Positions 54,755 through 61,935 of a stretch of DNA of 64,000 nucleotides are shown one piece after another (the stretch's first letter is position 1; every line of letters begins with the position of its first letter). The position numbers and the translations under genes are program-made. Source of the DNA: Sulfurisphaera javensis (GTDB taxonomy: Archaea > Thermoproteota > Thermoprotei_A > Sulfolobales > Sulfolobaceae); NCBI RefSeq assembly GCF_041154675.1, contig NZ_AP031322.1:620001-684000 (forward strand), written 5' to 3'. The notes below the pieces were generated by a model. It did not search any database. It was not told the DNA's origin and was given only the letters and a program-made list of their open reading frames with translations.

Positions 54755-55785
54755 ATATATTTATAATATTCCTCCGCGGTTTTATTCCAATCGTATTTTA
54801 ATGAACTTTCATAACTACGTTTTGATAAGTATTTCATTACATTTTCATCCTCTAATATATAGTCAAGTCTCTCAGCAGCCTTATTAAAGTCTTGATAAGG
54901 AACTAAAAAACCATTCACTCCATCTTCAATTATTTCTGGCATAGAACCAGTAGAATAAGCAATAGAAGGAGTTCCACAAGCATTTGCTTCAACAATAGTC
55001 ATACCCCATCCTTCTATAAAAGAAGTCGAAAGGATAGCCCAAGACTGCTGATAAAGTTTTACTTTCTGGCTTTCAGATACTTTACCTAAATAGATAATAT
55101 TTTTATTACCTCCAATTGCCCTTCTTACTTCTTCCTCTAAATCACCTCCACCTGCAATATAAAGGGTGGCGTTTGTTTTCAATTTTTTAAAAATCTTTAT
55201 AGCATCTAATGGATTTTTATACCTCTTCATTCTTCCAATCCATAAAACTATAGGTGTACTAGGCTTCTCTCCAGGCTTATACTTTTCATGATCAACACCA
55301 TTATGAATTACACTTATTTTACTCTCATCTACATGTAACCTTTTTACGAGCTCGTTCTTCGTTGTATTAGATACTGAAATAACATAAGGGTAGTTTTTAA
55401 TTTTCTTTTCTAACTGCCTTACGAGAAATGCCAACAAAGGGTTTAGTTCATATTTAACAACATCCTGATGAACATGATGAACTAAAGCAATTGACTTTTC
55501 ATTAACTCTATAAGAAAAGAAAGGAACAGCGTGAGCAACACTATCAATCACAACATCATAATCTTTGGCATAACGCGAAGATATAAAGTGGAGAGTATAT
55601 TTTCCTCCAGCATGAATAAACTTAATCCCTTCCAATTCATCATCTGGGTTTCCTACATCCTCACTAAGCCAACTTACTTCAATTCCTTTCTTTACTAACC
55701 TTCTACCTACCTCATAAATTACTCCTTCAGCACCACCAGCTTGAGGATGAAAAATATCTCTGTGATTTATAAATAATAATTTCAC
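54733..55785 (-). CDS. GT4-family glycosyltransferase (GT-B fold)
   Basis: 350 residues from a GTG start. N-terminal domain opens with HPQAGGAEGVIYEVGRRL (G-G-A-E loop). The C-terminal donor domain has IGRMKRYKNPLDAIKIFK, then SFIEGWGMTIVEANACGTP with the E-x7-E motif, typical of retaining GT4 enzymes using nucleotide sugars. It probably adds a sugar to a lipid-linked or surface glycan in the cytoplasm. Acceptor unknown. Confidence 0.85.
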   Translation of the reverse strand: MKLLFINHRDIFHPQAGGAEGVIYEVGRRLVKKGIEVSWLSEDVGNPDDELEGIKFIHAGGKYTLHFISSRYAKDYDVVIDSVAHAVPFFSYRVNEKSIALVHHVHQDVVKYELNPLLAFLVRQLEKKIKNYPYVISVSNTTKNELVKRLHVDESKISVIHNGVDHEKYKPGEKPSTPIVLWIGRMKRYKNPLDAIKIFKKLKTNATLYIAGGGDLEEEVRRAIGGNKNIIYLGKVSESQKVKLYQQSWAILSTSFIEGWGMTIVEANACGTPSIAYSTGSMPEIIEDGVNGFLVPYQDFNKAAERLDYILEDENVMKYLSKRSYESSLKYDWNKTAEEYYKYIWKIAES

Positions 55786-55820
55786 GAAATAAATTAGGTT
55801 TACAACTTTAAAAAATTAAA

Positions 55821-55880
55821 GAGCCGAGGGGACAAAGGGTTCTCATTGAGCCCTAATGGGCACTTGAACCCCGCGGCTTA
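55821..55880. ncRNA. Candidate structured RNA (GC-rich self-complementary island)
   Basis: A 60-base stretch with about 59 percent G+C stands in AT-rich intergenic DNA. Nested pairings are seen: GAGCCG (55821-55826) with CGGCTT (55874-55879); GGGTTC (55837-55842) with GAACCC (55866-55871); GCCC (55850-55853) with GGGC (55858-55861); an alternative GGGG (55828-55831) with CCCC (55869-55872). T-runs follow on both sides, so the strand is not decided. It is not a tRNA (no usable T arm) and shows no C/D box. In AT-rich hyperthermophiles such islands are usually stable RNAs. Lies between a GT4 gene and a small membrane-protein gene, both on the minus strand. Confidence 0.5.
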
Positions 55881-55909
55881 ATAATAAAAAAGATTTAACT
55901 TTTTTAACT

Positions 55910-56302
55910 TTAACTTTTATCGAATTTCCAGAGTAATGCTGATACAGCAATTAAAATAACATCCAAAATCCAGCTCTCAACTACATAAATGTTTACTGGT
56001 AAAGGTTTGCCTATGAACAGTGCTGGTGCTGTTCTAGTTTCAGTAAGTAATAAGAAATCGATAACGTAAAAGATTAATGCTGGCAAATAAAGATTTCTAA
56101 TTCCTAAAATAAACGCTACAGCAGCTACTATTGCTAAAGATGCTGTAAAGGCGAAGAACGTTGAATATATTTCTGTCGCTAAAACATTTTTAGGAAAAGC
56201 TACGTGGGATGCTAAAACTATATGTACCCCAGCCCATAATGCTGATCCTAGCAGTCCAGTCCATCTTAGTGCTTGTGTTCCAAGTCCTATTTTGCTTGCC
56301 AT
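55910..56302 (-). CDS. Small four-helix membrane protein
   Basis: 130 residues with four predicted membrane helices (about 10-28, 40-62, 66-86 and 98-122). No recognised motif; a polar loop GKPLPVNIYVVES separates helices 3 and 4. A GTG is in frame at 56308, but ATG 56302 fits a TATATTTAAG box 26 bases upstream on the minus strand. An 8-base inverted repeat with a MarR gene behind it lies just beyond that box. Possibly a target of the MarR regulator. Confidence 0.65.
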   Translation of the reverse strand: MASKIGLGTQALRWTGLLGSALWAGVHIVLASHVAFPKNVLATEIYSTFFAFTASLAIVAAVAFILGIRNLYLPALIFYVIDFLLLTETRTAPALFIGKPLPVNIYVVESWILDVILIAVSALLWKFDKS

Positions 56303-56334
56303 ATGCACACGTTAGAAACTTAAATATAACTATG

Positions 56335-58521: not shown

Positions 58522-61500
58522 TTAACTTGAAGAACTTGATGAAGATGGTACAGTAAATTGAACTGGAGCGAATGTTATTAACTGTTTCTCATCTTGTGAT
58601 AAAGTTCCAATTTTCACTATATTTACCCAAGCCCACTTTACCATTTGGTTATCAGTCACTGGATCAACTGTTGGAGATGTTAATTGATTAGCACCAGGAC
58701 TGGTTGGATAAGCCATTGCAACAAACACTTGACCGGGAGCGACAGTGTTAGATATCCACGCTACACCAGTTATTGATCCCCAGTCATTATACAACATAAG
58801 GATATCACCATTATTCCAACCATTGGCACTAGCGTCTTGCTGGCTTACTGCAATTATCGGGAATGGAACTCTTCTGTATATATCTGGAATCTGAAAGTCA
58901 GTCCAACCAGACTGGAATATAATATTCCATCTTCCGTTATTGACCCAGAACTTGTATTTCGATTGTAATTGTGAAGCATAGCCAAATACTCCTACATAAG
59001 GCATTGGGAATGGATTGAGACCGTTAATAACATATTTCATTAGTGTGTTGTAATCATAACCAAACATGGATTGTAAGTCATTTATGTTAATATATGTAAC
59101 CTCTCTAGTAATTAGTGGAAGCTGAGTGTTTCCTACAGTTACTGACTGATTAGGATTGACAGTTACAGCTTCTACTCTAAATTGACCGTTAATCGCTCCT
59201 TGAATACCAGGTTCAGCGTAATTTACCAATCCGTATAGTGTATAACTTCCATCGGAGTTAGTAACTTTACCCAGTATAGGTAATTGAACACCAATAGTTC
59301 TGGTTGATTTTAAGTCACTTAATGACATTTGACTCCAGCCTGGTGCCCAGTGAGGTACGAAATAACCATAAGGCCATGAAGAGAAGTTAGTTGGTCCATT
59401 TGCTACGTAGTAAGTCCATAGGTCACTATAGATGTTAAACCAGTTATAATCATAGTAGAATTGTGAGAAACTTGAAAGTTCTGATAACGATAGAGGCTGT
59501 GAGTTTTGTGTCATATTATTCATTAACGAAGTCCAAATTTGGTTAAATGCCGTATATAATCTTTGAGCTTGCGGCGAATTCTCCATTCCATTTTGCTTAA
59601 ACATCTGATATATTAAGTAAGATAGAAGTCCGTATGTCCATACATCTGGCATAGCATTTCCAGGTGGGGAGTGGAATGGCTCAACTAACCTTAATCTCCT
59701 ATCATGTCCGTTCCATCTAATCTCATAAGTTTCACCATGATTAGCAGCTGCAGGTAATATAATATGAGCTGCATTTTCTAGCAATCCGTTCTGATTAAGT
59801 ATAATATCATGACCTACAATAAATAATGCTCCTGGCGTTTTATTACTTCCACTTAGGCATGATATTACAGCATCAGCATATTGGTCTGGGTCTGGAAATT
59901 GTGGAATAGTTGAACTAACTGCATTAGTATTATAATATGGTGAAGATGATATTATTGATGAAGTTGAACCAGATGGTACTCCAGCGGATAGAGTATTTTC
60001 TACACATTCTTGTAAAAGTTTTGATCTATGATTAATTGTCTGTGCTAGTTTACCTCCTGCCATAGTTAGCTTATATGGTACAGCTGTGAATACCCATAAT
60101 ACTTTTCCATAACCGCTATATATGAGATAGTCAACGACTGGATTATACTGATAAATTTGAGGAACTAAGGAACTTGTGTATTGACTATAGAAATTCTTTA
60201 TAAATTCGGCTATTGTTGTACCACTCACAGTTTGTCCTTGAGACTTTAGTTGTTGAGGAACATAACTACTCATTTGTATCCATAGTTGCCTTCCTTGATT
60301 TAACGATAGTCCAATATTAGGATACCATGGTGGTGGTGGAGGCAATGGGAATGCAGCACCTCTCTGATGGCCAAATCCAGTAGATATCCCACAACCTGGT
60401 CTACCAGATAATGCTCCAATTATTATGGCTAAATTAGCTAAGGAATATATTGGAGTGTAATTTCCAGACCAAATTATACCTTTTTCAAATTCAATTACAA
60501 CTCTTTTATAATATGTCTGCCCATTAGAACCAGTTTTTGGTTTAGCTAGCATATCACCCATCATTTGTATGATATTTTGAGACACACCAGTTATTGACTC
60601 GGCCTCAGATAACCATTCGCTTAAGCTCTTAGATTGTAAGTATTGTAAATAGTATTGATAGTTTGTATTATTAAATGTGAATGCATTATTACTATTGCTT
60701 TGAGCTTGCTGATACATGTTAATGAAGTTTTGAACTGTTGTACTTCCATAAGTATAGTAAATATAAGCTGCTACAGCATTTATTAGCTCAGTATCTGTAC
60801 CTGGATTTACTAATACAACTAGAACTTGTGGTAATCCATCTTGAGATTTTCCTACGTTACAAGTGCCATTCATTGCTTCTTCAACTGTACATCCTACCGC
60901 AGCTGCGACAGCATGTGCTGTTTCGGACGGTCTCGCTTCAACGACAATTGCCATTCCGGGTGGTGTAGGTTCACCAGGCTCAAACCACTGAGCTTTTCTG
61001 CTCTGTGTAGCTCCTCTTAAATTATCGAAAATGTGCTGAATAAGATTAACAGTTGATGTAACATATTCGTTAATTCCCCACATTACCATTACATCTGTTA
61101 TGCTAATGTCTAACATGCTAGACGTATCAGTACCATTACCATTAGTTGCCTCCATTAAAGCATCTTCTGTTAGAGAGAAGGCAACTTGATAGTGAAACCT
61201 TATAAATGGAGTAGCTAAACCCATATGAATGAATAATCCCGGCATTAAATTACTGAATACTCCTCCACCTTCCCCACCTCCGTGGTCGGATCTTATAGCC
61301 ATAACTTCTGTTGCAGCTGGGCCTACTGGATAATCAGTCGTTTCGTTTGTTAGATAATAATACAAGATTTTCGCTAATACTTTAAACACATAACTCCATC
61401 CAACTGGCTGTAGCGTTCCATTCCATCTTATCATAGGAGTCTTTATTCTGGTTTCATATACTCTAAATCCAGCAGCATTATCAACTAATGGACTCCATAT

Positions 61501-61935
61501 TCTTTGAGCATTCCTTCCTCCTCTAGTGGAATAATTTCCTTCATTGACTGGACATTCAGAGCTAGGGACTTCTAATATATATACTTCTTCCCAAGTCTGA
61601 GTATTTGGATTATATGTTATTGTTTTACTAACCATTCCTTCTCCAATCCACGGGGTTCCAGAATTAGCTGAAAGTGAGGGTAAAACTTGAGTATAATCAG
61701 CTTTATAATTCTGTAGATTTCTGTTAAATACTTTATCTACCATGTTATAAACTATTGCGTTTTGTCCTGCTTGTGGACTACCTTCTTGTCCTACTGGAAA
61801 GACAAAAACATCATAACCACAGCCAACATTACAGAATCTACATGTAACATGGTATATCTGTGCTGTAACTGGTGGTAAAGGCACTTTATTATTTGGAACT
61901 GGTGTTATTTGAGAAGTTGAACTATTCATACTCAT
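58522..61935 (-). CDS. aioA: Arsenite oxidase large (molybdopterin, [3Fe-4S]) subunit, extended archaeal form
   Basis: 1137 residues. The N-terminal cluster motif [16 protein letters not shown] (C32, C35, C39) has three Cys, and the fourth ligand position is not Cys, as in arsenite oxidase. [20 protein letters not shown] then follows, and later blocks ([43 protein letters not shown]) continue the AioA fold. Bacterial AioA has about 825-850 residues, so about 290 extra residues are present, mostly as insertions and a Ser-rich tail. No signal peptide; export would be with the Rieske subunit by Tat. Overlaps aioB by four bases. It oxidises As(III) to As(V), or possibly a related substrate. Confidence 0.84.

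Follow-up and report, generated by a model that had tools for sequence, protein, structure and literature searches.

What is encoded by a short GC-rich island that lies between two genes of the archaeon Sulfurisphaera javensis (G000, genome of 2.57 Mb)? In the window, by which we mean the whole stretch of 64,000 nucleotides that was analyzed, positions 55821-55880 contain 35 G+C among 60 bases (58%), against about 23-40% G+C in the neighbourhood. The island is intergenic, with the start of a GT4 glycosyltransferase gene at 55785 (minus strand) on one side and the end of a gene for a 132-aa protein at 55910 (minus strand) on the other. A previous reading of the sequence alone had described a GC-rich island in AT-rich DNA, with three nested stems and an alternative GGGG/CCCC pairing, that was neither a tRNA nor a box C/D RNA, and this description was borne out in every point: the compositional contrast is real, the stems are present (5 + 6 + 4 bp) and the GGGG/CCCC pairing is possible in S. 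javensis. ARAGORN and Rfam returned no tRNA cloverleaf match for the island, the Rfam search gave no match to any family, and inspection of the island sequence revealed no pair of C (RUGAUGA) and D (CUGA) boxes.

In our judgement, the island probably encodes, on the minus strand, an H/ACA-like guide RNA for U39 of an unspliced CAU pre-tRNA, which would replace TruA at that position. The conserved core of this putative RNA (55816-55882, minus strand, ends estimated) is kept in seven genomes (G000, G001, G002, G003, G013, G019, and G011).

Conservation, strand and genomic setting

The island is about 95% identical in three Sulfurisphaera congeners, with diverging flanks, and homologs were also identified in two further Sulfolobaceae genera. 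The homolog of one of them (G013) was a 77% match in a DNA search, and those of the other (G019 and G011) were found by a covariance model, with E-values of 2.5e-11 and 4.5e-7, respectively; a refined model, whose training set included these two sequences themselves, scored them at 78 and 68 bits. Each genome has one strong copy of the RNA. G019 and G011 again have it downstream of a 130-aa gene, on the same strand, and in G013 it occupies a different neighbourhood, after a radical-SAM-type gene. The different setting in G013, together with the single strong copy, argues for an RNA gene in its own right. Weak covariance-model matches in other families (G058, G084, and G219, among others) were taken as chance, and a 20-bp congener match inside a TldD-like gene as coincidence.

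The 132-aa protein (55910-56308, minus strand) has no Pfam match and is conserved across Sulfolobaceae, in 28 of 31 genomes. Its gene adjoins the guide RNA in two genera, and no such RNA was found downstream of its orthologs in other genera. Elsewhere in the window, positions 58522-61935 (minus strand) encode a 1137-aa molybdopterin oxidoreductase-like protein with Molydop_binding and Rieske_3 matches, whose gene lies beside those of membrane proteins that match no Pfam family and of a MarR-type regulator.

Covariation in relatives had been proposed as a check on the island, and it was observed: five base pairs have changed on both sides, a number equalled in none of 500 shuffles, and the signal disappeared when the partners were slid by one column. 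In the six distinct sequences compared, 94.9% of cells are paired in the conserved structure. Covariation across homologs is seen in both the inner and the apical stem; Sulfurisphaera has GGGUUC/GAACCC as its inner stem, G013 has GAGGCC/GGCCUC, and G019 has GGGAUU/AAUCCC. At a single site of the outer stem, the change turns G-C into G-U on the minus strand and gives A.C on the plus strand. Moreover, each of the seven homologs has on the minus strand a TATA-like box, judged by eye, at a distance of 42-49 nt upstream from the K-turn; in S. javensis the box is GTTAAAAAAG (55899-55908, minus strand), a possible promoter of the guide RNA. Since the outer pair is kept only on the minus strand and TATA-like boxes stand upstream, we read the RNA on that strand, and the locus is most likely a minus-strand RNA gene of a Sulfurisphaera-type archaeon. 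Another TATA-like box, TTTTTTAAAG (55806-55815, minus strand), precedes the GTG start codon of GT4 by 21-30 nt and is conserved in congeners. Its position suggests a leaderless GT4 mRNA, which would leave the hairpin outside the GT4 5' leader.

Architecture of the candidate guide RNA

Along the minus strand, in 5' to 3' direction, the homologs present a 5' guide, an 8-layer stem, (A/G)A, the apical C-stem GUGCCC-AUNA-GGGCUC, an NAU bulge, GA, the returning stem, and a UGUCCCC 3' guide. From its sequence, we identify this conserved fold, a stem with an archaeal K-turn, as the core of an H/ACA or H/ACA-like pseudouridine guide. In S. javensis the 5' guide AGCCG (55874-55878, minus strand) is predicted to pair with C41-U45 (CGGUU) of the CAU pre-tRNA, and is followed by the 5' strand of the GA stem, CGGGGUUC (55866-55873, minus strand), whose outermost layer is C x U and the next G-U. 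The K-turn (55843-55865, minus strand) consists of AA, the C-stem GUGCCC-AUUA-GGGCUC, the bulge AAU, and GA, and is shared by every homolog and by further Sulfolobaceae guides. The 3' strand of the GA stem, GAACCCUU (55835-55842, minus strand), carries compensatory changes, as does the 5' strand. The 3' guide, UGUCCCCU (55827-55834, minus strand), could form 8 pairs with the CAU pre-tRNA, at the intron end AGGGGAC and A38, and its segment UGUCCCC is invariant across homologs. Finally, the lower stem survives as 5 bp between 55874-55878 and, on its 3' side, CGGCU (55822-55826, minus strand). This remnant is paired in both Sulfurisphaera and G013, and it would have to open for target pairing.

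The K-turn sequence (A/G)A-GUGCYC...GRGCUC-NAU-GA is conserved on the minus strand, the G013 variant having a longer bulge. The GA stem comprises 8 layers, which with 2 GA pairs make 10 stacked layers, the length of productive guides (PMC4652768); its outermost layer, C x U in Sulfurisphaera and G013, is A-U or G-U in G011 and G019. The canonical lower stem of 7-9 bp is replaced by 5 bp in Sulfurisphaera and G013 and is mostly lost in G019 and G011. At 14-16 nt from the pair that closes the pocket, where an ANA box belongs, the homologs have none; G019 has UCA near position 15. In the comparison with H/ACA models that the sequence-only reading had called for, the K-turn and the 10-layer GA stem agreed, and the ANA box and the lower stem did not. 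Lacking an ANA box, and with a lower stem that is either short or absent, the feature is best classed from its sequence as H/ACA-like, and not as a canonical box H/ACA RNA.

Canonical archaeal H/ACA sRNAs (Pyrococcus, Archaeoglobus, and Haloferax) share with the Sulfolobaceae RNA the K-turn, the 10-layer GA stem, the bipartite guide, and the UN pocket, but differ from it in those same two elements. Closer models are the H/ACA-like sR203-sR210 of Pyrobaculum, which are likewise K-turn hairpins with guides in single-stranded 5' and 3' ends, a lower stem truncated to residual pairs, and an ANA box that is sometimes missing (PMC4652768). Unlike these, the Sulfolobaceae RNA keeps 5 bp of the lower stem in some species, would target a pre-tRNA intron/exon junction, and appears to have changed its tRNA between genera.

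The same K-turn module was observed in other Sulfolobaceae RNAs (L124, L125, L128, L129, L132, L133, and L139, near position 1500), and L124 and L128 have a lower stem of 7 bp. With the G000 rRNA as target and the same register, these sibling guides fit U8 of 16S rRNA, CCGG-UU-GAUCCUGCC, with 3 + 8 or 9 pairs as the best rRNA site, and thereby provide a positive control for the register. When the genome contigs were scanned with a K-turn pattern, one Sulfolobaceae match came up, a 16S-type sibling.

Predicted target and rival explanations

The target was predicted from the two flanking guide segments by the published 10-layer rule. A loose-register pattern (GGGGRYR, 0-2 nt, UN, 1-3 nt, GGYU) was searched in G000, G001, and G013; in G000 it gave 10 matches against 9 in the reversed control, so that match counts alone are meaningless. 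However, GGGGACATCCGGTT, which is in the exact 10-layer register, was the only sequence common to the matches of the three genomes. In G000 it falls within a tRNA that has an intron and the anticodon CAU (Rfam tRNA, 61.5 bits); G001 and G013 have it in the orthologous CAU tRNA gene. The target span runs from the 3' end of the intron through A38-U39-C40 to C41-U45, with 13-14 guide-target pairs, and 0.018 GGGGACATNCGGYT sites are expected by chance in G000 from base composition. We take the CAU tRNA to be elongator Met, since its anticodon stem lacks the initiator GGG/CCC pairs; Ile2 is the remaining alternative.

Within the scored target sets, which were confined to 16S, 23S (from G000 or G013), and the tRNAs for Met and Leu, the own-species target scored 31-37 and the next site 12-17, and none of 400 shuffled guides equalled the real own-species score, in both cases for all genomes but G002. 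For the CAU tRNA target the corresponding scores were 33-37 and 15-17. Bipartite pairing that leaves UN unpaired was found in 6 of 7 genomes, with 5-7 + 6-8 pairs around U39, and fails in G002. In that genome (L004, near 1501-1609, and L194), the CAU-tRNA intron ends in CGGGGAA, as in several genomes of genus g5, and the guide no longer fits; the guide itself carries an extra 1 nt in the GA stem, unique among congeners. It is possible that the G002 guide has lost its target and is now decaying.

These tRNA introns often have a run of G in front of the 3' splice site, probably because it forms pairs within the splice motif, and a match to the 3' guide alone therefore counts for little. The case for the predicted target is built on both guides and on a coordinated guide change between genera. 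The 5' guide of G019 reads CCAGUG in place of AGCCG, and it has no fit to the CAU tRNA; the target predicted for it has a single genome-wide match, in tRNA-Leu(CAA) at U39 (reversed control, 0; chance expectation for the pattern about 0.28 from composition), and the intron of this tRNA ends in GGGGAU. In G011 the 5' guide is CCAGCG and fits the genome's own tRNA-Leu(CAA) with 6 + 6 pairs; this genome contains no perfect match to the Leu(CAA) target pattern. In two other genomes (G007, L190; G044, L196), the intron of the CAU pre-tRNA shares its GGGGAC end with that of Sulfurisphaera; no guide homolog was detected in them, and another guide may serve their CAU pre-tRNA.

Other targets were considered and set aside. 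Scans of 16S and 23S rRNA gave no strong match, the 23S candidate GGGGGACAA is broken in G011 (GGGGAACAG), and for U35 of tRNA-Tyr, C32-U33-G34 can by sequence logic pair with UGU at two bases only. An H/ACA-like guide with another main target, such as a different tRNA, an mRNA, or an imperfectly paired rRNA site, is unlikely. In its favour are the lack of an ANA box, a less than exhaustive scoring of other pre-tRNAs and mRNAs, and the many chance matches that the loose pattern yields; against it, the U39 junction is the only common match, the guide change in G019 and G011 leads again to a U39 junction, and the rRNA scans lack a close match. Less probable still is an L7Ae-binding RNA without modification activity, either a chaperone or splicing aid of pre-tRNA or a 3'-UTR element of the 132-aa gene. 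In three lineages the RNA follows that gene, both being on the same strand, which would suit such a role, as would the lack of an ANA box; against it stand the unrelated gene upstream in G013, the TATA-like boxes directly upstream, and a bipartite guide that leaves an exact UN pocket.

Both strands fold more stably than their shuffles, and the folding statistics favour the plus strand, with -28.2 kcal/mol and a z-score of -3.8 (equalled by none of 200 dinucleotide shuffles), compared with -2.2 to -2.8 for the minus strand. Nevertheless, we consider a plus-strand RNA or a DNA-level palindrome, such as a mobile-element end or a protein-binding site, to be very improbable, given the single strong copy per genome, an outer pair that survives on the minus strand alone, and a K-turn and guide logic that exist only there. 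A plus-strand H/ACA reading has a K-turn-like UGA-GCCC...GGGC-ACUUGA, and G013 is without GA at that place. The switch between two pairings that the sequence-only reading had offered beside an H/ACA-like guide can practically be dismissed. GGGG/CCCC is indeed part of the minimum-energy fold in S. javensis (with AGGGTTC/GAGCCCT), but this fold is lost in the G013 homolog, where the second pairing is impossible (CGGAGGCC against CCCCC), and CCCC belongs to the conserved 3' guide. The guide half of that proposal is the one supported, by conservation, compensatory changes, the K-turn, and a matched target.

In the guide reading, a 60-70 nt H/ACA-like RNA would be transcribed from the minus strand, and its stem and K-turn would be the binding site for L7Ae and for the pseudouridine synthase Cbf5-Nop10-Gar1. 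The UGUCCCC guide would pair with the last six intron bases and A38 of the unspliced CAU pre-tRNA, and the AGCCG guide with C41-U45, placing U39 and C40 in the pocket, where U39 would become pseudouridine before splicing. In the sister genus (G019 and G011), the 5' guide would have changed to fit U39 of pre-tRNA-Leu(CAA). Transcription, protein binding, and U39 modification are what we infer from sequence features. A CBF5 gene is reported for S. tokodaii (PMC2738675).

Position 39 in Sulfolobaceae apparently without TruA

Pseudouridines at positions 38-40 are normally made by TruA/Pus3 (PMC6313347; PMC2584109). At E <= 1, PF01416 (TruA) had no match in 8 of 8 Sulfolobaceae genomes (G000, G004, G011, G012, G013, G017, G019, and G044); among 14 control genomes it matched 13, the exception being Sulfolobus acidocaldarius, from the control list. 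In such apparently TruA-less Sulfolobaceae, the guide would take the place of the enzyme at U39. According to Wolff et al., pseudouridine 39 is likely in Sulfolobales, and mass spectrometry cannot separate pseudouridine from U (PMC7668247).

A precedent is known from the same order, where pseudouridine 35 of tRNA-Tyr is described as H/ACA RNA-guided (Muller 2009, as cited in PMC4652768), aPus7 being deficient there. Its guide, Sso1, resembles the present RNA as a guide that replaces a deficient tRNA pseudouridine synthase, in the account given in PMC4652768. Compared by that description, the Sulfolobaceae RNA differs in its predicted site (U39, TruA-type) and tRNA, and in having no 9-bp lower stem.

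Position 39 is widely modified in tRNA, and for one tRNA the candidate guide offers a concrete, testable answer to how it is treated in Sulfolobales, which appear to lack TruA. If correct, it would be the second case in Sulfolobales, after pseudouridine 35 of tRNA-Tyr, in which an RNA guide replaces a protein tRNA enzyme, and would extend H/ACA-like guides beyond Pyrobaculum. Furthermore, a guide RNA gene would apparently have changed its target tRNA between genera with its structure kept. For a broader proposal we see the chances as evenly balanced: Sulfolobaceae may lack TruA and make pseudouridine 39 in some tRNAs by lineage-specific H/ACA-like guides that read intron/exon junctions of unspliced tRNAs, one and the same guide gene having switched between pre-tRNA-Met and pre-tRNA-Leu by a change of its 5' guide, and tRNA introns may thus have a role as guide-docking sites.
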